Below are positions 1,431-64,000 of a DNA stretch of 64,000 nt, piece after piece. A program made the translations under genes and the position numbers. The notes beneath the pieces are model-generated. The model searched no databases. It was not told the origin of the DNA and worked only from the letters and a program-made list of their open reading frames with translations. Each line of letters opens with the position of its first letter. The first letter of the stretch is position 1. The DNA lies in contig NC_073313.1 in assembly GCF_027595985.1 (NCBI RefSeq), positions 215,824,066 to 215,888,065 of the forward strand. The letters run 5' to 3'. Source of the DNA: Sorex araneus (lineage: Eukaryota > Chordata > Mammalia > Eulipotyphla > Soricidae).

Positions 1431-1578
1431 TGGGTAAAATATTCCCCTGATCCTGAAAGAGACCCTAATACGCCATTGGGTTACACTAGCATGTGACAGG
1501 GACTAATGTAACAGAGATGTTACTGGTGCCTCGAGCAAATCGATGAACATTGGAATGACAGTGATGACAGTGATGACT
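1431..1578 (+). repeat. SINE-B long variant, 5'-truncated and internally deleted
   Basis: The 3' half reads as the SINE-B end: 'gttactggtgcc', then 'tcgagcaaatcgatgaac', then repeated 'gatgacagt'. Upstream it carries the block found in the long SINE at 4389-4740 ('attcccctgatcctgaaaga', then a 'ccattgggttacactagcat' stretch). Part of that block is missing after 1473. The tRNA-like head is absent. This copy helps show that the extra block belongs to a SINE subfamily rather than being a chance insertion. Confidence 0.7.
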
Positions 1579-3154: not shown

Positions 3155-3400
3155 TAAGAGATTTTGTCACTGTCACTGTCATCTCGTTGCTCATCAATTT
3201 TGTTTGAGCGGGCACCAGTAACGTCTCTCATTGAGAGACTTATTGTTATTGTTTTTGGCATATCCAATATGCATGGGTAGCTTGCCAGGCTCTGCCTCTC
3301 GGGCTCCATACTCTCGGTAGCTTGCTGGGCTCTCTGAGAGGGGCGGAGGAATCGAACACGGGTTGGCTGCGTGAAAGGCAAATGCCCAACCGCTGTGAGA
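3155..3400 (-). repeat. SINE-B
   Basis: Full-length copy in reverse. It runs from the 'gtcactgtcactgtcat' end through 'gagcgggcaccagtaacgtc', the 'ttgccaggctctgcct' centre and the complement of a tRNA B box ('aatcgaacacgggttggc'). Divergence from the other copies is moderate. Confidence 0.88.
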
Positions 3401-4120
3401 ATTTTATTGCTCATTCTTCAGTCTTCATTCAAATAAATTCTGTTTTGTACAATCACTCAATATACATTGATAAGAAAACCAAGATCTCACATAGTTATGT
3501 GGATAAGAGAACATAAAACAAGACTATGTTATAACTGAGATATATATGGGCCCTTCCCTTCATTGTTAGGTATATACTATGAGGCACTGTCTTCAATACT
3601 GAATGTGGAAGGAGTAAGATCCTAAAAGTGTAAATATTTAAGGGCATTATTTAACTGCCAGTAAGATGATTTATTAAACATTATAATATCCATTTGTAAT
3701 TTCAGAATTGGTCATTCAAGGGGATATTGCCTATGTAATTAAAAGTCACACATATAAGGAAGGTCTCTTTGGACCTAATATCTAATGATAATTCTGAGGA
3801 AAACTATACTTTGTGACAGCTTAGCAAATATTTTTTCAGTTGGAAAAAAAAAACTATCCCTCTATCATTGGTTTCTTTTCTTAGTGCCTCTCATAAAGGT
3901 TTGCTTTGTCCCTCTGCCACAGAGAACTATCTTTAGGCTCAGGTTGTGCATTTGATATCCCTTTTGGTAACTTTTGAGGACTGTTTCTGTGTCATGAGAT
4001 CCCAACCCTTAGTTATCTACATGTATAACAATTTCAAGGACAGGTGTTTAATCACCAGTGTGAACTGGTGATCATGACTCTTCATTCACTTGTTACAGAA
4101 GTGGCTCCAGTTGTCTTTGT
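3401..4120. other. Unique sequence, nothing recognised
   Basis: No repeat family or plausible coding frame is visible. A short A run lies at 3845-3852. A local inverted match ('atcaccagtgtgaactggtgat') sits near 4051-4072 but is short. Confidence 0.4.
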
Positions 4121-4205: not shown

Positions 4206-4388
4206 AAAACAAAAAGCAATAGTAATAAAGTTTAGGATAACATTGGTTTGTTCTTTCTGCCTTGCCGTGGGGAGCTTAGGTTTACTGGGTTATTCCCATC
4301 ACAGTGTTCCCATTTCTGTTTGTATTTGTAACCTCTTTGTTTGTGCTCTGCTGCCCCAGCCTTTATCTCCTAATCAGACTCTGTTCAT

Positions 4389-4740
4389 CTGTCATATCAC
4401 TGTCGTCCCGTTGCTCATCAACTTGCTCAAGCGGTCACCATAAATGTCTCTATTTGATCCTGTCGCATGCTAGTGTAGCCCAATGGTGTCTCCTTGCTCT
4501 AGGAACACAAAGAGCGTCAAACCGTTTTAGCAACCTCTCCTTAGTCCTCCTTCCCAATTCTTCTGTATTGGGGGCTCTTTCAGGGTCAGGGGAATGAGGC
4601 CCCTTATTGTTACTGTTTTTGGCGTATTGTATATGCTACAGGTAGCTTGCCAGCCTCTGCCGTATGGGCGGGATTCTCTTGGTAGATTGCTGGGCTCTCT
4701 GAGAGGAACGAAGGCTCCAGGAGATTCTGCGTTGCTCTCT
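4389..4740 (-). repeat. SINE-B long variant with internal ~150-bp block
   Basis: In reverse, 4389-4452 is the ordinary SINE-B 3' end ('gttgctcatcaacttgctca') and 4600-4740 is the ordinary centre ('gtttttggcgtattgtat', then 'ggtagcttgccagcctctg'). Between them, about 4453-4599 is a foreign block containing 'gctctaggaacacaaagagc'. Parts of the same block occur in the SINE-like pieces at 1431-1578 and 5467-5560. The head is degraded, so the B box is not readable. Confidence 0.72.
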
Positions 4741-4789
4741 TCTAAGAGCTGTGTTTTATATTCTCTGGATCTTGGCCATTGATGAGATT

Positions 4790-5100
4790 ACATGGCACCG
4801 GGGGCAGTTTGTGGGTATGACTGCCAAGCTACTGGAAAACTGGGATCTGGGTGGAGGAGGCCCAGTCTCGATATGAGCAAGCTTAGAGATTTCAGCCATG
4901 GGTCCCACATACCTGGGTTCCTCTGACGGTTCCTTCATGGGTGAACCACATCCAAGTTTGTGGACAGTGGCCTTGAGCATGGCTATGGCTGGGTTCGAGG
5001 TTTTTGGCTGCCGGGGCTCTGCTTGAGGTGGGGAGGGAAACTCAACCTGTCCCCATCAGAGAGGGGGGCTCCAGTGAAGACAGCCTGGTACAGGGACAGG
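4790..5100 (-). mobile_element. Possible divergent relative of the L1-tailed chimeric element body
   Basis: Two blocks in the same order resemble the copy at 46375-46965: 'tgactgcc' followed by a purine-rich stretch and 'gatttcagcc', then 'ggctgccggggctctgcttg' (compare 'gctgccgggggctctgtttg' near 46600). The sequence between them aligns poorly. It may be an older member or a related L1 5' region. No L1 3' end is attached. Confidence 0.4.
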
Positions 5101-16635: not shown

Positions 16636-16882
16636 AGCACTGTAGCACTGTTGTCCCATTGTTCATTGATTTGCTCGAGCGGGCAACAGTAATGTCTCCA
16701 TTGTGAGACTTGTTACTGTTTTTGGTATATCGAATATGCCACGGGTAGCTTGCCAGGGTCTACCGTGCGGGCAGGATACTCTTGGTAGCTTGCCAGGCTC
16801 TCCAAGAGGGATGGAGGAATCAAACCTGGGTTGGCCACATGCAAGGCAAATGCCCTACCTGCTGTTTTATTGCTCCAGTCCT
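16636..16882 (-). repeat. SINE-B
   Basis: Full copy in reverse: 'gatttgctcgagcgggcaac', 'ccattgtgagacttgttact', 'atcgaatatgccacgggtag', 'gtagcttgccaggctctcca' and the head complement ending 'tattgctccagtcc'. Confidence 0.92.
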
Positions 16883-16996: not shown

Positions 16997-19900
16997 ATTT
17001 TTTAAAAGTTTTTTATTAGAGAATCACTGTGATGTTCAGTTACAAACTTATGAACATTTGTGTTTGCATTTCACTCATACAGTGATCGTTTACCCATCCC
17101 TCCACCAGTGCCCATTCACCTCCACCAATGATCCCTGTATCCCTCTCGCCACCCCCACCCCATCCCCCACCACCCCACCCTGCCTTTGTGGCAGGGAATT
17201 CCCCTTTGTTCTCTCTCCTTTTGAGTGTTGTAGTTTGCAATAGAGGTATTGAGTGGCCATCATGTTCGGTCTATAGTCTACTATCAGCTAGCATCTTCCA
17301 ACCTGAATGGGTCCTCCTGACATCCTCTACTTGGTGTTCCCTTCTCTATCTGAGTTGCCTTTTCCCCTAGCATGTGAGGCCAGTTTCCGAGCTGTGAGGC
17401 AGACCTCCTAATCCTTATCTCTATAACTCTTCGGTATTGGTCTCCCACTATGTTATTTTATATTCCACAGATGAGTGCAATCTTTCTATGTCTGTCCCTC
17501 TCTTTCTGACTCATTTCACTTAACATGATACTTTCCATGTAGATCCACTTATATACAAATTTCATGACTTCATCTTTTCTAACAGCTGCATAGTATTCCA
17601 TTTTCTAGATGTACCAGGGTTTCTTTAACCAGTCATCTGTTCTTGGGCACTCTGTTTTTTTCCAGATTTTAGCTATTATAAACAGTGCTGCAATGAACAT
17701 AGAAATGCAGGTGTCATTTCTACTATACCTTTTTGCCTCTCCAGGATATATTCCCAGGCATAGTATTGCAGGGTCAAATGGGAGCTCAATTTATAATTTT
17801 CTGAGACTCGTCCATATTGTTTTCCAAAAGAGCTGAACGAGTCGGCATTCCCACCAGCAGTGAAGGAGAGTCCCTTTCTCCCCACAGCCACACCAACAGC
17901 AGTTGCTTTTGTTCTTTTGGATGTGGGCCAGTCTCTGTGGTGTGAAATGATATCTCATTGTTGTTTTAATCTTCATCTCCCTGATGATTAGTGATGTAGA
18001 GCATTTTCTCATATGTCTTTTAGCCATTCGAATTTCTTCTTTGAGAAAATTTCTGCTCATTTCCAATCCCCCATTTTTTGATGGGGTTTGGAGATTTCTT
18101 CTTGTAGAGTTCAACCAGTGCCTTGTATATCTTTGATATCACCCCCTTATCAGTTGTGTATTGGGTGAATATCCTTTCCCATTCTGTAGACTGTCTTTGT
18201 ATTTTGGTCACTGTTTCTTTTGAGGTGCAGAAGCTTCTTAGTTTAAGGTAGTCCCATTTGTTTATCTCTATTTTCAGTTGCTTGCCCAGTGGTGTGTTAT
18301 CTTTAAAAATACCTTTAGCTTCAATGTCGTGGAGGGTTTTGCCAGCCTTGTTTTCCATGTACATTATGGATTCTGGTCTGATTGACGTCTTTAATCCACT
18401 TAGAACTGACTTTTGTACATGGCATTAAGTAGAGATCTAAGCCCATTTTTTTGCATGTTGCTGTCCAGTTTTGCCAGCACCATTTGTTGAAGAGGTTTTC
18501 CTTATTCCAATTCACATTTTTTGCTCCCTTATCAAAGATTAGATGATCATATATTTGAGGGTGTGTGTCATGATATTCAACCCTGTTCCATTGGTCTGTG
18601 GCTCTGCCTTTGTTCCAGTACCATGCTGTTTTAATTATTACCATTTTGTAGTTTAGATTGAGGTTGGGGAGAGTGATTCCTCCCATATTCTTTTCCCTAA
18701 GAGTTGCTTTAGCTATTTGTGGGGGCTCATTGTTCCATATGAATTTCAGGAATGTTCACTTCATTTCTTTGAAGAATGTCATGGGTATCCTTATAAGGAT
18801 CGCATTGAATGTGTACAATGCTTTGGGGAGTATTGCCATATTGACAATGTTAATTCTCTCAATCCATGAGCAGGGGATATCTTTCCATATCCTTGTGTCC
18901 TTTATAATTTCTTGAAGTAGCAATTTATAGTTTTCTTTGTACAAGTCCTTTACCTCCTTAGTTAAGTCTGAGGTACTTGATTTCCTGAGACACCATTGTG
19001 AACGGGATTGCTTTTTTCATATCATTTTCTTCTCTCTCGTTATTTGCTTATAGGAAAACCATGGACTACTGGGTATTGATTTTATAGCCTGCAACTTTAC
19101 TATACAAGTCTATTGTTTCTAAGAGTTCCTTGGTTGAGGTTTTAGGGTTCTCTAAGTATAGTATCACAACATCTGCAAATAGTGAGAGCTTGATTACTTC
19201 CTTTCCTACTTGAACGCCCTTAATATCTTTTTCTTGCCTAACTGCTATTGCAAGTACTATATTCCAGTACAGTATTGAACAGAAGTGGAGAGAGTGGGCG
19301 TCCTTGTCTCGTCCCTGATCTTAGAGGGAAGGATCTTAGTTTTTCCCCATTGAGGATGATGTAGGCTTGTAGTAGATGGCTTTGACCATATTGTGGAAAG
19401 TCCCTTCTATACCCATTTTGGCCAGAGTTTTTATCATAAATGGGTGTTGGATCTTGTCAAATGCTTTCTCTGCATCTATTGAGATGATCATATGGTTCTT
19501 ATCTTTTCTTTGTTGATATGATGGATTATGTTGATTGATTTTCGAATGTTAAACCATCCTTGCATCCCTGGGATGAATCCTACTTGGTCGTGATGTACGA
19601 TCTTTTTGATGAGTTGTTGGATTCTATTTGCTAATATTTTGTTGAGAATCTTTGCATCCATGTTCATCAGGGATATTGGCCTATAATTTTCTTTGTTATT
19701 GATATCTTTGTTTGCTTTTGGTATTAGGGAGATATGAGCCTCATAGAAGCTGTTTGGTAGAGTCCTTGTTTCTTCAATTTCCTTGAAAAGCTTGAAGAGA
19801 ACTGGCAACAGGTCCTCTTTAAATATTTGTGAGAATTCGCTAGTGAATCCATCCGGGCCTGGGATTTTGTTTTTGGGAAGACATTTGATAACAGATTCAG

Positions 19901-20080
19901 TTTCCTTGATATTAATGGGTCTATTAGGTATTCCAAGTCTTCTGGTTCAGTCTTGGGAGATTGTAGGAATCAAGGAATTTGTCCATTTCTTCTAAGTTCT
20001 CTTGTTTCATGGCATAGAGATTTTCAAAGTAGTCTCTGATAATCTTTTGAATTTTATTGGTTTCCCCTGCTTGTTTTAAT
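16997..20080 (-). mobile_element. LINE-1, 3.1 kb, 5'-truncated, dead ORF2
   Basis: This is the longest L1 copy in the window. In L1 orientation it ends in a T run at 16997-17018 (poly(A) complement). The 3' UTR covers about 17020-17460, and ORF2 covers about 17460-20080, from the start of the reverse-transcriptase domain to the C-terminus. Readable ORF2 pieces include 'SLIPKANKD', 'NYRPISLMN', '[17 protein letters not shown]' and '[15 protein letters not shown]'. The frame changes many times through small indels. At the catalytic site (about 19168-19179) the usual FADD reads FADV, so the second aspartate is lost. The endonuclease, ORF1 and 5' UTR are missing. It cannot be active. Confidence 0.95.
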
Positions 20081-25225: not shown

Positions 25226-25328
25226 CTGTCACTGTCACTGTCATCCTGTTGCTCATCGATTTGTTCGAGCGGGCAACAGTAATGTCTCTCATTGTGAGAC
25301 TTGCTGTTACTGTTTTTGGCATATCCAT
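25226..25328 (-). repeat. SINE-B 3' fragment
   Basis: Only the last ~100 bases of the SINE are present: 'gtcactgtcactgtcatcct', 'gagcgggcaacagtaatgtc', 'gtttttggcatatcca'. The body and head are missing. Confidence 0.85.
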
Positions 25329-25521
25329 TACGTTTACATATGAATAATAGTATAACAGTGTTTAAAATTATAGAACAGGTGTCTACTTGTCACCAGTACT
25401 TCTAACACATAATTCTGAATCAAACTTTTCTCCTAAGTAAAATAGTTACCTGTGTATAGCCAAAGCCTCATTGTAGTTCTGTAGATATGTCATTTATGTA
25501 TAGCATACATGATGTATACCA

Positions 25522-27439: not shown

Positions 27440-27880
27440 ACCCCAGGAGATTGTCTCCATGGCTTGGAGGCTGTTCTCTCATTCTGGGCAACTCAGAGAA
27501 GGGAACACCAAGTAAAATGTGGTTGTTGGTCATGTGGGGGAAAGATGATGCGGGCCGAATATAGACTAGAGACAACACAATGGCCACTCAACACCTTTAT
27601 TGCAAACCACAACACCTAATCAGAGAGAGAGAACAAAAGGGAATACCCTGCCATAGTGGCAGTGTGGGGTGGGGGGAGACGGGACTGGGGAGGGGGGGAG
27701 GGATGTTGGGTTTACTGGTGGTGGAGAATGGGCACTGGTGAAGGGATGGGTTATCAAACTTTGTAAGGGAGAAACATGAGCACAAAAATGCATAAATCTG
27801 TAACTGTACCCTCACGTTGACTCACTAATTAAAAATAAACTATTAATTAAAAATAAATAAATAAATAAATAAAAATTAAA
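27440..27880 (+). mobile_element. LINE-1 3' end
   Basis: Contains 'gagaagggaacaccaagtaa', 'caatggccactcaacacctt', 'tattgcaaaccacaacacct', a short GA run, then 'ggcactggtgaagggatggg', 'gtaactgtaccctcacgttg' and an A-rich tail of 'ataaataaataa' units. Confidence 0.88.
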
Positions 27881-27881
27881 A

Positions 27882-27949
27882 GAAAGAAAGGAAGGAAGGA
27901 AGGAAGGAAGGAAGGAAGGAAGGAAGGAAGGAAGGAAGGAAGGAAGAAA

Positions 27950-28009
<60 letters not shown>

Positions 28010-28011
28010 AA

Positions 28012-28103
<92 letters not shown>

Positions 28104-28122
28104 AAAGGAAAGAAAGAAAGAA
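27882..28122. repeat. (GGAA)n then (GAAA)n tetranucleotide array
   Basis: Pure GGAA units cover about 27889-27945 and GAAA units continue to 28122, with occasional AAAAG interruptions. It begins at an L1 A-rich tail and ends at a SINE. The 99-codon poly-F/L/S frame across it is an artefact. Confidence 0.97.
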
Positions 28123-28123
28123 A

Positions 28124-28303
28124 GGCACTGCGGTAAGGTTGTGCAATATCTGACTGTGCTCAGGACTTATTCCTGGGTCTGTAATCAGGGATTAATCATA
28201 GTGGTATTCACGGTACCAAATGCAGTGGTGAGGATTGAACCAGGATTGCTGGCATATAAGACAAATGTCTTAACTCCTTTGTACTATCTCTCCAGCCCCT
28301 GCA
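28124..28303 (-). repeat. SINE-A
   Basis: 'gactgtgctcaggacttatt', 'gtaatcagggattaatcata', 'ggattgaaccaggattgctg' and 'tactatctctccagccc' give the reverse SINE-A pattern. Confidence 0.78.
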
Positions 28304-29300
28304 CAAGATATATAAGAAATATTATATCAAGTTATGAATGAAAAATTTGGCATTGCTTTTTTTGAATACTGCCTTAATTTTTGTGTTAAATGTTGACTTT
28401 TCAAAGATATCCAAGATGAGCATTTTAGTCCTTGGTCCAAGAAATTGTCTGGGTTCTGCCATCCTTGTATGGCGAAGATGTCTAGAAGGAGATTCAGACT
28501 TTCAACATCAAATGGCTGCTCCCGTGACATCTGGCAAGTAGCTCATGGAAGGGCATCTTTAAATTTTACTTCATGTATTCAATAGGAGCTTCTTAAATTC
28601 CTCTGTCTTACTTATGGCCAGATGCTAGGGACTCAGATATGGTCACTGCCACCCCAAGTCAAAAGCCCTGTGGGATAACACCACTAAAACGGTTGTTATG
28701 TCATTGAATTAGTAATAATAATAGAGGAAGTTCAAGGAGTATGGGGAACTATAGTCTAGAAGTCAGGAAAAGCTTTTTAGTATTTGATCTCTTAAACAGA
28801 GTGTGTGTGAGAGACCATTGCATAAAGTAAATGATATATAATGTAAATGACATACAAGTAGCTGAACAACCTGTGAAGAATGTGAAGAGAGAGTTTGGTG
28901 TGAGGGTTTGAATATAAACTAGACTGGCTAGAATAATGATGCTAACTCTATATGAGATTGGAGAAGTGAGCAGTGGTTAAGCTCAAAAGACTCTAAAACT
29001 CATATTAGAGCATATACTTTATTCAGTGCATAGCTGAGAAGCCAATGAGAGGGTTTTACACAGAAGGTTAACATAGTTATTACTTAACATATATTAGTTA
29101 TTTAGACAGATTTTATTTAAAGAGATTTTATTTAACAGATATTATTCTAACTTCTAGAAAGCAATTAAAGATTGACACAATGCTATAGATTAAAATTAAA
29201 AGTTATTTTTACAAAAGGGTTGATGGACACGAGAAATTTAGAAGGCGTCTTTTAAGACATGAGAGACAATTTGACTTAGAGAGTGAAGTAAAAAATATCT
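28304..29300. other. Mostly unique; possible ancient repeat at 28890-29075
   Basis: Near 29030 'gagaagccaatgagagggtt' followed by 'ttacacagaaggttaacata' resembles an old mammalian repeat pattern ('gaagccattggagggtttt...'), but I cannot name it. The remainder shows nothing. Confidence 0.35.
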
Positions 29301-32171: not shown

Positions 32172-32425
32172 TTTCTAACTGTAGCATTGTAGCACTGTTG
32201 TCCTGTTGTTCATCAATTTGCTCGAGCGGGCACAAGTAACATTTCCACTGTAAGACTTGTTATTACTGTTTTTGGCATATCAAATACACCAAGGGTAGCT
32301 TGCCAGGTTCTTCCATGTGAGCGGGATACTCTCGGTAGCTTGCCAGCCTCTCTGAGAGAGATGGACGAATTCAACCGGGGTCGGCCATGAGCAAGGCAAA
32401 CTCCCTACCCGCTGTGCTCTCATTC
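32172..32425 (-). repeat. SINE-B
   Basis: 'ctgttgttcatcaatttgct', 'cgagcgggcacaagtaacat', 'agggtagcttgccaggttct', 'tgagcgggatactctcggta' and the head complement at 32350-32425. Confidence 0.9.
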
Positions 32426-32487
32426 CAATTCTATTTTCTAATTATAAATGTATTTTTATGTCTATTTTTAGTATGTCTTCAAAAAAT

Positions 32488-37117: not shown

Positions 37118-37357
37118 GGGCTGGAGCGATAGCACAGCAGCTGGGCGTTCGCCTTTCACACGGCCGACCCAGTTCGATTCTTCCGCCCCTCTCAGAGAGC
37201 CCGGCAAGCTACCGAGAGTATGGAGCCCGCTCGGCAGAGCCTGGCAAGCTACCCGTGCATATTGGATATGCCAAAAACAGTAACAATAAGTCTCTCAATG
37301 AGAGACGTTACTGGTGCCCGCTCAAATAAATCGATAAGCAACGGGATGACAGTGAAT
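37118..37357 (+). repeat. SINE-B, near-consensus, with target-site duplication
   Basis: The clearest forward copy: 'gggctggagcgatagcacag', the B-box region 'cagttcgattcttccgcccc', 'gagcctggcaagctacccgt', 'atatgccaaaaacagtaaca' and 'gtctctcaatgagagacgtt'. The 11-bp repeat 'atcaaataaat' flanks it at 37107-37117 and 37364-37374. The internal 'tctctcaatgagaga' palindrome is typical of this SINE. Confidence 0.95.
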
Positions 37358-41774: not shown

Positions 41775-42830
41775 TACATTAAAAATTTAATTAAATAACT
41801 GTGATTTATGAGGTTACTGATAGTTGAGTTTTAGGCATGTAATATTTCAACACCAATCCCACCACCATATCTACTTCCCTTCACTAGAGTTTTCAGTTCT
41901 CAGATTCCATCCTTATCCGACTCAACCCCTTCTTCCCCATCTCCTACCTGTAAGTTGACAGGGGCATTACAAAGTCCCAGTGTTTGCAGCTTAGATATTA
42001 TATTTTCCATGTTGCTTAGTCTGTATTTTAGATATATGGCTATACCACTCACCCATACCAGTCAGAACTGAAGTTCTGACTCTTGTTCAGCCATTACTTC
42101 CCATCCTCTTCTTTCCCCCTTGATGGTTTTATTTTCCTTCTCTGTTCTCTCTAAACATTAGGGTTGAGGGTGATCTAGACATCTCCCCTTTACTACAATA
42201 CATTTCTTCATCTAGTATCCTAATACCACAATTAAATGAGATCATCTTGTGTTTGTCTTTGTTATTCTGATTTACTTCACTTGACATATATTCCAGTTCC
42301 AACCATTCTGCAGCAAATTGTGTAATTTCATTGTTCCTTGTAGCTGCATAGTATTCCACTGTGTGTATATATATATATGTATATATACTCCATATCTTCA
42401 TAATCCATTCAATTGTTGTTGTACACCTACATTGATTCAATATCTTAGCTCTTACACTGAGGGCAGCAATGAATAATAGTGTGCATATGTCCTTTTGAAT
42501 AAGTATTCTAATGTCTTGGGGGTAGAACTGTAGTACTGTCATCCCGTTATTCGTCGACTTGCTTGAGCAGGCACCAGTAATGTCTCCTTTGTGAGACTTC
42601 TTGTTACTGTTTTTGGCATATTGAATATGCCACGTGTAGCTTGCCAGGCTCTGCTGTACGGGCAGGATACTCTCGGTAGCTTTCTGAGCCCTCTAAGAGG
42701 GTCAGAGCAATCAAACGCGGGTCAGCCACATGCAAGTCAAACACCCTATCCGCTGTGCTATAGCTCCAGTCCTGGGGGTAGATACTCAAAATGACATGTG
42801 AATTTCTATGGGCTATGTAGTTCTTACCTA
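41775..42830 (-). mobile_element. Old LINE-1 (3' UTR and ORF2 end), interrupted by SINE-B
   Basis: In reverse: an AT-rich end, a diverged 3' UTR, then ORF2 C-terminal sequence including 'cttgtagctgcatagtattc' and 'gttgtacacctacattgatt'. A TA microsatellite (42362-42385) has grown inside it. The SINE-B at 42530-42771 sits within it, and the L1 continues to about 42830. Confidence 0.75.
42530..42771 (-). repeat. SINE-B nested in an old L1
   Basis: 'gagcaggcaccagtaatgtc', 'ttgaatatgccacgtgtagc', 'acgggcaggatactctcggt' and 'gctgtgctatagctccagtc'. The 10-bp repeat 'tgggggtaga' flanks it on both sides (about 42518-42527 and 42774-42783), marking the insertion site. Confidence 0.92.
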
Positions 42831-45697: not shown

Positions 45698-46965
45698 TTT
45701 TTAATATACGAGTAGCACTGTAGCACTGTCATCCCATTGTTCATCAATTTGCTCAAGTGGGCACCAGGTACGTCTTCATTGTGAGACTTGTTACTGTTTT
45801 TGACATACTGAATAAGCCACGAGTAGCTTGCCAGGCTCTGCTGTGCGGGTGGGATACTCTTGGTAGCTTGCCAGGCTCTCCAAGAGGGACAGAGGAATCG
45901 AACCCGGGTCAGCTGTGTGCAAGGCAAATGCCCTACCCACTGTGCTATTGCTCCAGTACAATGTATGAGTACTGCTTTTTATTCTGCCATTGATTAAGTT
46001 GATTTAATTGGGGATGAACTCCACATTAGTTTTCTAAATTTTTTAAAAAATGCTTTAAATTGAATATCCATTAGCCAATGTCCATTAGCCAATATCCGAT
46101 AGCCATTACAAAGCTGTTTGTAATTAGATTTCAGTCATGATGCAGCACCCTATCCTTCACCAGTGTACATTTCCTACCACCAGTCCCCTGTTTCCCTACC
46201 ACTATTTCCCAACACCCCACCCTCCCTCTATGGAAGACACTTTCCTTCTTGCTCTCTTTCTCTCTCCTTTTCCTTTTGTGCATTATGGTTTGCAATACAG
46301 GTGCTGAGAGGTCACAGTGTTTGTTCAGAGCATTCAGTATTTTTATCGGAACAGTAAGGCTAGAGTAGCTTTTCAATTGGATGGCTGCTTTGAGGTGTGG
46401 CTGTGACTGCCGAGGCTTCAAGAAGTACAGTGAGGTGGAGGGAGGTAGCCCATCCCAACTCTGAGAAAGCCTGGAGGTTTCAGTCACAAAACCTGCATAC
46501 TCAAATATTCAGCAGATTTATATCTTGGTGAGGTCCATCTTGAGATGGTGGAGTCAGGTCAGGGGGATGGCAGTGATTGTGAATTGTGGAAACATGCAGC
46601 TGCCGGGGGCTCTGTTTGGGCAGGCACCAGACTAACCCACCCTTCTCTGATTTACGCCCGTCTGTTCAGCCATGCACAGGTCTAGGATTAACTGCAACTT
46701 TTGATCTCTTTTGGGATTTATGGTTCTCTGAAATAAGGCTGATAAATGAGCTTTTATAGCTGAGCCAGAGGTGGTTTGTGGGCATGGCTCCTACATACCT
46801 AACTTTTGGCCATTTAAGTTTTTGGTAAACTTGGCCCCAAGTTGTTGGGTCTAGCCAAAGACACAGGGGCAATTTTTGAGTATCAGAAGCCTGAAGGCAC
46901 CATCAGGCGATAGATGCCCTTGTCCCACAGGTACAGGCTGACCTGCTGGCAGCACCATATCCACA
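45698..46965 (-). mobile_element. L1-tailed chimeric retroelement, copy 3, with TSD
   Basis: In reverse orientation: the body starts at about 46965, at the same point as copy 1 ('ggatatggtgctgcc' against 'ggatatgttgtcacc'), and an L1 3' end lies at about 46330-46110. An A/T-rich junction at 46030-46060 is followed by the extra ~70-bp 3' unit (45962-46030) also seen in copy 1 (8939-9009), then an A run. The flanks match at 16 of 17 bases: 'gatagagagaaaacttt' (45681-45697) and 'gatagggagaaaacttt' (46966-46982). A SINE-B was later inserted into the 3' unit. The body codes for nothing recognisable. Confidence 0.8.
45712..45957 (-). repeat. SINE-B inserted in the 3' unit of chimeric copy 3
   Basis: 'tgtagcactgtcatcccatt', 'ttgctcaagtgggcaccagg', 'ggtagcttgccaggctctcc', 'aatcgaacccgggtcagctg' and 'gctattgctccagt'. 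The flanks 'atatacgagta' and 'atgtatgagta' look like a diverged target-site duplication. Confidence 0.93.
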
Positions 46966-53307: not shown

Positions 53308-53505
53308 CACTATAGCACTGTCATCCCGTTGTTCATCGATTTGCTCGAACAGGCACCAGTAACGTCTCCATTGTGAGACTTGTTGTTACTGTTTTTGGCA
53401 TATCGAATATGCCATGGAGAGGTTGCCAGGCTCTGCTGTGTGGGCAGGATACTCTTGGTAGCTTGCCAGGCTCTCCAAGAGGGACGGAGGAATCAAACCC
53501 ACTGT
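53308..53505 (-). repeat. SINE-B, head truncated
   Basis: 'gcactgtcatcccgttgttc', 'gaacaggcaccagtaacgtc', 'ccaggctctgctgtgtgggc' and 'gagggacggaggaatcaaac'. The tRNA-like head is replaced at about 53500 by a forward SINE. Confidence 0.9.
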
Positions 53506-62385: not shown

Positions 62386-62564
62386 GGGGCCGGAGTGATA
62401 GCACAGCGGGTAGGGCGTTTGCCTTGCACACGGCCGACCCGGGTTCGATTCCCAGCATCCCATATGGTCCCCTGAGCACCGCCAGGGGTAATTCCTGAGT
62501 GCAGAGCCAGGAGCAACCCTTGTGCATCGCCGGGTGTGACCCAAAAAGCAAAAAAAAAAAAAAA
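62386..62564 (+). repeat. SINE-A, near-consensus, with 15-bp TSD
   Basis: This is the best reference copy. The head 'ggggccggagtgatagcaca' contains an A-box match ('tagcacagcgg', 62399-62409). The B box 'gggttcgattcc' (62441-62452) is intact, so both internal RNA polymerase III promoter elements remain. It ends 'gtgtgacccaaaaagc' and a long poly(A). 'aaagatttactttta' flanks it exactly at 62371-62385 and 62565-62579. A third similar copy of that motif lies at 62346-62358. Confidence 0.97.
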
Positions 62565-63369: not shown

Positions 63370-64000
63370 ACTATTATCTTCATTAAGTATAAAATGTTCA
63401 TTGATTTAAAGAAGGCCTTTGATTCTGTTGAGACTTAAGCAGTCATCAAAGCCCTAGCCAAACAGGGCATTCAAACTCAGTACATCAAGATCCTCCTCGA
63501 GCTGTATTATGGATTCACCACCAGGATCTCACTATTCTACAAGGAAGTGATCATTGACGTAAAAAGAGGGGTTCGGCAGGGTGATGCTATTTCACCAAAA
63601 CTCTTAAGTGCTACCCTTGTGAACATCATGCGATGACTGAAATGGGAAGGAATGGGAGTGAAGATAGACGGTCGGCTACTACACCACCTCCACCTCACTG
63701 ATGACATCGTTCTCATAACGCCAAACATTAGCCACGTGGCACAAATGCTGGCTGACTTCGATCACAAGTGTGGAAGGGTCGGACTTCAGTTGAATCTCAG
63801 CAAAACAATGTTCATGGAAAACAAACTAGTCCCTGACATTCCATTTGCTCTCAACGGAATGAACATTTCCGAATGCAGCAGCTATGTGTAGCTGGGTCAA
63901 GAACTCAACATGAGGAACGACTTGGTGCCAGAATTGTGCAGGAGGAAAAGAGCAGCGTGGAACACCTTCAGGAGCATCGAAGAAGTGGTTAAGAAGATGA
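63370..64000 (+). mobile_element. RTE-type non-LTR retrotransposon, reverse transcriptase fragment
   Basis: From 63397 to the window end one frame reads as a reverse-transcriptase domain: 'FIDLKKAFDSVET', 'DVKRGVRQGDAISPKL', the catalytic 'LTDDIVLITPN' (DD at 63700-63705), 'LNLSKTMFMEN' and 'NGMNISECSSYV', then 'RRKRAAWNTFRSIEEVV'. There is no frame change in about 600 bases, and only three nonsense codons (63436-63438, 63634-63636, 63889-63891), each one base from a sense codon. The wording differs from L1 and matches, from memory, RTE elements common in nematode genomes. The 5' edge near 63370 is uncertain: a few residues before FIDL ('KYKM') may belong with a small deletion. The endonuclease is missing and the 3' part runs off the window. 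Confidence 0.88.

Follow-up and report, generated by a model that had tools for sequence, protein, structure and literature searches.

Introduction

Two groups of described repeats are the closest counterparts of the elements analysed here. In birds, short interspersed elements (SINEs) mobilised by AviRTE, such as ManaSINE and GymnSINE, combine different, separate promoter heads with a common bipartite tail made of pieces of the 5′ and 3′ untranslated regions (UTRs) of this horizontally transferred RTE (Suh et al. 2016, PMC4844689). In ruminants, Bov-A2, which uses the 5′ end of BovB as promoter, and Bov-tA, which has a transfer RNA (tRNA) promoter, both end in BovB tails, and similar pairs exist in other mammals (PMC3747384). 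For shrews, an RTE-type long interspersed element (LINE), named RTE1_Sar in Repbase, has been described in many copies in Sorex araneus (PMC6542046), and a SINE named Sor is mentioned in PMC8466645 and PMC11240701. Here we analyse a stretch of 64,000 nucleotides of the S. araneus genome (contig NC_073313.1, positions 215,824,066 to 215,888,065; hereafter the window), whose 3′ end carries a copy of such an RTE and which contains several copies of a SINE made of RTE pieces, together with the window's own assembly (2.41 Gb, 65 contigs).

The explanation that accounts best for both elements, and that we consider highly probable, is a truncated RTE1_Sar-type copy plus a SINE built from a deleted RTE and the head of an A-tailed SINE. 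With moderate confidence we go further and propose that a nematode-derived retrotransposon was taken over by a shrew SINE, which exchanged its A-tail for 5′ and 3′ pieces of the RTE and reached some 130,000-400,000 copies. No report of an RTE-tailed shrew SINE was found in searches of an open-licence library, and curated repeat libraries may contain one. The words "SINE", "non-autonomous" and "UTR" are absent from the main text of PMC6542046, as are "shrew" and "insectivor-" from that of PMC3747384.

The RTE-tailed SINE combines a resident SINE head with two RTE pieces

Searching RTE copies against the window and random regions yielded many short matches, only to the last 50-130 bases of the element, and a common tRNA-type head and body lay upstream of most of them. 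The body is a piece of the RTE's own 5′UTR, sited directly before the open reading frame (ORF) in L016 and L018, two full-length RTE reference copies (names of this form denote fetched genomic loci), and a single alignment ran through the UTR piece into the ORF start in 40/40 scored genome matches (of 8830 candidates; one of the 40 is the query). The SINE is composed of the tRNA-type head, this 110-bp 5′UTR piece as body and the last ~60 bp of the RTE as tail. In the column majority of 22 copies, found in 223,655 bases, positions 1-63 are 95% identical to the head of the A-tailed SINE present in the window, positions 62-172 are 89-90% identical to the RTE 5′UTR, and positions 180-241 are 90-93% identical to the RTE 3′ end. 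All 22 copies matched the 5′UTR of both references, and the RTE 3′ end was matched by 22/22 copies with L018 and by 19/22 with L016. The SINE shares its 3′ end with a LINE of the same genome; the copies had been found through this tail. Reversed references were matched by none of the 22 copies, and none of 66 A-tailed SINEs, which end in an A-rich tail unlike the RTE-tailed SINE, matched the RTE pieces. A chance match of the SINE tail to the RTE is rejected by these controls. The opposite direction of transfer, in which the RTE took its 5′UTR from the SINE, is disfavoured since the UTR extends past the SINE piece on both sides.

Within the window, a SINE primer published for Soricidae has two exact and two one-mismatch matches, and its site is exact at 62447-62466 in the A-tailed SINE beside the RTE copy (primers from PMC8608897), identifying the host, as judged by its SINE, as a shrew. 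Given the primer match, the A-tailed SINE is probably the Sor SINE. The RTE-tailed SINE would then resemble Sor in its head and differ from it in its tail.

A subfamily of the RTE-tailed SINE carries GTCTCTCAATGAGAGACG instead of GTCTCACAATGGAGACG at the body-tail junction (window 3166-3413 and 37121-37355; L032:4789-5029).

Evidence for retroposition, and copy number of the SINE

Flanking repeats of at least 8 bp were present in 7/21 SINE copies as compared to 6/420 mismatched pairs, and repeats of at least 10 bp in 5/21 copies as compared to 0/420 pairs; four of 25 copies were left out of this test as their 5′ end is missing. The SINE occurs as dispersed copies with target-site duplications, and it is well supported that it is a composite and retroposed family.

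The abundance was estimated from 139,935 bases that had been selected without regard to the element, namely the window, its extension and seven random 10-kb stretches (seven of the first eight drawn, the sixth being left out; the draw covered nine contigs). This sample contains 14 SINE copies, a density of 100 per Mb (95% interval 55-168); at this density the assembly would have about 240,000 copies (132,000-404,000). The sample also contains 45 full A-tailed SINEs. The window contributes seven of the 14 copies and L049 three; L030 and L032 have two apiece, and none meeting the count criterion was found in the window extension and the other four random stretches; since the copies are clumped, the 95% interval is optimistic. 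The exact head/5′UTR junction occurs 7673 times genome-wide and never in reversed form. As it is exact in only 1/22 known copies, this count points to the same order of magnitude as the scaled estimate. The exact 3′ junction of the SINE occurred three times in the 263,655 bases examined.

The RTE copy in the window is a complete 5′-truncated insertion

The preliminary description of the window, made from its letters, had reported a frame of about 200 codons with three stops, no indels and reverse transcriptase motifs, and had taken it for a 5′-truncated RTE copy in a shrew-type genome. Translation of the frame 63394-63999 gives 202 positions, of which three are stops and the rest residues, and in an alignment with 20 other genomic copies the window copy has no internal gap or insert across 63393-64000 (detailed indel scoring covered its part within the window, up to 64000). 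The translation matches Pfam RVT_1 at 1.1e-15. Its best PDB sequence match is a "reverse transcriptase-like protein" (1.9e-10), further matches are R2 and LINE-1 proteins and an entry named only "RNA-directed DNA polymerase", and telomerases are marginal. With RVT_1 and with R2 and LINE-1 among the best PDB matches, the domain is of the non-LTR (long terminal repeat) type. No relatives of the fragment were found among viral contigs and prokaryote genomes.

Extending the contig, as had been suggested, recovered the 3′ end: the copy runs past 64000 to window-equivalent position 64521, where it reads ...GACAAGTGATACAGGTGATA, a GTGATACA-type repeat. A 14-bp target-site duplication, TAAGTATAAAATGT, lies immediately before and immediately after the copy, and the largest string shared among 240 mismatched flank pairs is 10 bp, with 0/240 reaching 13 bp. 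The window copy is therefore a complete 5′-truncated insertion of about 1.1 kb. Similarity to other copies begins at 63393, a few bases before the duplication ends, and the first codon of the frame (ATG) lies inside the duplication and outside the element, so that the element proper starts at about 63398. Domain, family, 3′ end, duplication and the Soricidae primer all agree with the earlier assignment.

The stop at 63634-63636 is also present in 13/20 other copies sampled and therefore need not be private to the window copy; part of the family may have inherited the stop from its source element, or this position may be highly mutable. Differences of the window copy from the majority are evenly spread over codon positions 1/2/3 (15/12/17), and the pooled differences of the other 20 copies have a third-position excess (240/212/301).

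A first-look genome search with the window copy returned 8845 candidates. Forty of them, on nine contigs, were scored; the 39 matches other than the window copy itself are 88-90% identical to it (best other 90%). From the best scored matches 20 further copies were fetched with wide flanks, giving 21 with the window copy, a set chosen by similarity in which older copies are under-represented. Their 5′ ends are scattered between about -60 and positions beyond -1700, and the 3′ end is the same in 18/18 copies examined (the other three of the 21 lack it), with GTGATACAA-type terminal repeats and no poly-A. Short terminal repeats at a shared 3′ end, in place of poly-A, are in line with an RTE-clade LINE. 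Of 16 testable copies, six are flanked by an exact repeat of at least 8 bp, as compared to 12/240 mismatched pairs; in the remaining five of the 21 an end is missing or not defined.

The preliminary description had also proposed a fairly young insertion, which the divergence values do not support. Over 605 columns the Kimura two-parameter distance (K2P) from the majority of the 21 similarity-chosen copies is 0.041-0.082 (median 0.063), and the window copy ranks fourth from the top at 0.072 (7.2%). For the A-tailed SINE nearest to it, at 62386, the divergence is 0.067. Given these values, the window copy is not specially young. The mammalian average substitution rate is 2.2e-9 per site per year, at which the copy would be about 33 million years old. 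The rate applied to rodents in PMC8466645, 0.8% per million years, would make it about 9 million years old.

Identity and origin of the RTE

RTE1_Sar has been reported from S. araneus and nine nematode species, with 80.1% identity to the Heligmosomoides polygyrus consensus, and horizontal transfer between nematodes and shrews was argued (Dunemann and Wasmuth 2019, PMC6542046); the content of this report is as the preliminary description had stated it. According to the same paper the shrew copies are decaying neutrally and the arrival of the RTE in shrews is only bounded, at about 60 million years. The window copy fits RTE1_Sar by host type, element type and abundance, with no known difference; it was matched by the published description, and name and origin rest on PMC6542046. 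By itself it is an ordinary copy of an element as published, and nothing new. The source of the LINE is most likely a strongylid nematode, as published elsewhere.

An ordinary mammalian RTE, BovB-like or from an old vertically inherited lineage, might be considered in place of a nematode-derived one, as the reverse transcriptase domain alone is generic. However, the median pairwise K2P of 0.112 among the 21 best-match copies suits a lineage-limited burst, though this sample favours close copies, and we consider such an origin unlikely. Contaminating nematode DNA at the window end, or a chimeric join in the assembly near 63370, is extremely improbable. This reading is prompted by the trichocephalid contamination reported for the shrew assembly of the 2019 study (PMC6542046), but the 14-bp duplications match on both sides of the copy, shrew-type repeats lie near the window end, and the 40 scored members are dispersed on nine contigs.

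Internally deleted RTE copies and proposed origin of the SINE

In body and tail the SINE looks like an internally deleted RTE copy. One deletion junction is common to three loci (L013, L030 and L032); in it a few bases separate ...AAAATCTCAGGG of the 5′UTR from a 3′-end stretch resembling CGAATGGAGACG. Both places are alike in the full element, with CAGGGACGAA in each, as expected of a template jump or slip. Within the window, 4385-4800 represents a different type of deletion, and about 1440-1574 probably a further one. Internally deleted RTEs in the window (4385-4800), L030 (8211-8560) and L032 (3941-4315) have in common a leader with TATAAAA, which was not seen in the examined stretches of L016 and L018; the RTE may have two 5′ leader types.

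We propose the following course of events. The decayed, 5′-truncated RTE1_Sar-type copy (63398-64521) was most probably inserted by target-primed reverse transcription; copies of the family end alike in a short terminal repeat, start at differing points and have target-site duplications, the window copy itself combining 5′ truncation with such a duplication. In some shrew copies the same LINE would have lost its coding middle. A deleted form would then have suffered a further deletion and had its leader replaced by the A-tailed SINE's tRNA-type head, giving rise to an RNA polymerase III-type SINE that ends in the 3′ tail of the LINE. The reverse transcriptase of the LINE probably recognised this tail and copied the SINE in trans. 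We infer this order of events, and the mobilisation by the RTE, from the composition, junctions, abundance and flanking repeats observed above; the SINE likely depends on the RTE.

Several observations weigh against this scheme. The SINE copies were chosen by a model seeded from RTE-tail matches and the 66 A-tailed SINEs exclude copies overlapping the 22, so that the tail contrast is partly built in; the 5′UTR half of the contrast is not. The A box is intact in only 14/22 and the B box in only 11/22 of the decayed SINE copies, and exact flanking repeats of at least 8 bp are kept in only 7/21 SINEs and 6/16 RTE copies. Furthermore, the tails differ consistently, with GATGAG in the SINE and mostly GAAGAT or AAAGAT in the 18 RTE tails, and the terminal repeat has 8 bases in the SINE as compared to 9 in the RTE. 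The SINE copies also look older (median divergence 0.113) than the RTE copies (0.063, in a sample picked by similarity). Finally, RTE fragments with the GATGAG form exist, in three of six loci fetched.

These fragments (L042, L044 and L046, with the tail at position 1501) carry the SINE-type motif GATGAGCAACGGG; a plain-pattern search for RTE copies with the SINE-type tail gave 605 matches, mixing both tail types. The consistent tail differences, the greater divergence of the SINE copies and the fragments with a SINE-like motif could also mean that the SINE was mobilised by a different, older shrew RTE, with today's RTE1_Sar copies as its sister lineage. Yet the terminal repeat of the three fragments is still of RTE type and their match to L018 is 80-84%, so that they resemble an older branch of this element more than a separate family, and we regard a different RTE as possible, if rather doubtful. 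Within the proposed scheme, the consistent differences together with the three fragments that hold part of the SINE form suggest that the direct partner of the SINE may be an older branch, or a sister lineage, of the same RTE.

Compared with the AviRTE SINEs, the shrew SINE has the same bipartite 5′ plus 3′ construction; the RTE and the host are different, and its head matches that of the A-tailed SINE resident in the shrew. As with Bov-tA and Bov-A2, there is a tRNA-headed form next to a 5′UTR-headed deleted form, whereas the partner LINE is of RTE1_Sar type; this likeness is drawn from the published description. If the scheme is true, it would be a mammalian repeat of the bird case with the deleted intermediates still readable. 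The SINE would show that a single cross-phylum transfer can be followed by, and supply, a second and far larger wave of insertions; it would also show that BovB, AviRTE and the shrew RTE each gave rise to a similar 5′-plus-3′ recipe. Its presence or absence across shrew species could date the arrival of the RTE more closely than the published bound.

Features of the window

The RTE-related features of the window are collected in Table 1.

Table 1. RTE-related elements and the neighbouring A-tailed SINE in the window
Feature	Position	Strand	Remarks
Target-site duplication, 5′ copy TAAGTATAAAATGT	63384..63397	+	3′ partner L009:3588-3601 (window-equivalent 64522-64535), outside the window
5′-truncated RTE (RTE1_Sar-type) copy, reverse transcriptase domain part	63398..64000	+	continues to window-equivalent 64521
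A-tailed tRNA-type SINE (probable Sor type)	62386..62559	+	first ~63 bp = head common to the RTE-tailed SINE; published primer match
RTE-tailed SINE (tRNA head + RTE 5′UTR piece + RTE 3′ end)	3166..3413	-	
RTE-tailed SINE	16639..16878	-	
RTE-tailed SINE	32188..32427	-	9-bp flanking repeat
RTE-tailed SINE	37121..37355	+	11-bp flanking repeat
RTE-tailed SINE	42527..42769	-	10-bp flanking repeat
RTE-tailed SINE	45717..45956	-	
RTE-tailed SINE, head truncated	53310..53501	-	
RTE-tailed SINE fragment (body end + tail)	25232..25332	-	
Internally deleted RTE, without tRNA head	4385..4800	-	5′UTR with TATAAAA-bearing leader joined to last ~130 bp
Probable further internal-deletion junction	1440..1574	+	~30 bp 5′UTR-like (by eye) + last ~100 bp of the RTE; start approximate

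The preliminary description had noted many frame changes in the L1 copies around the RTE. Two other frames of the window gave domain matches. One of ten ORFs scanned, 19491-19946 on the minus strand, contains a piece of a reverse transcriptase (PF00078, 1.8e-11), presumably from an L1 copy. The ORF 27880-28338 on the plus strand has a sub-threshold match to Sec62 (3.6e-05; 24.1 bits against a cut-off of 27.8), which is probably an effect of composition.
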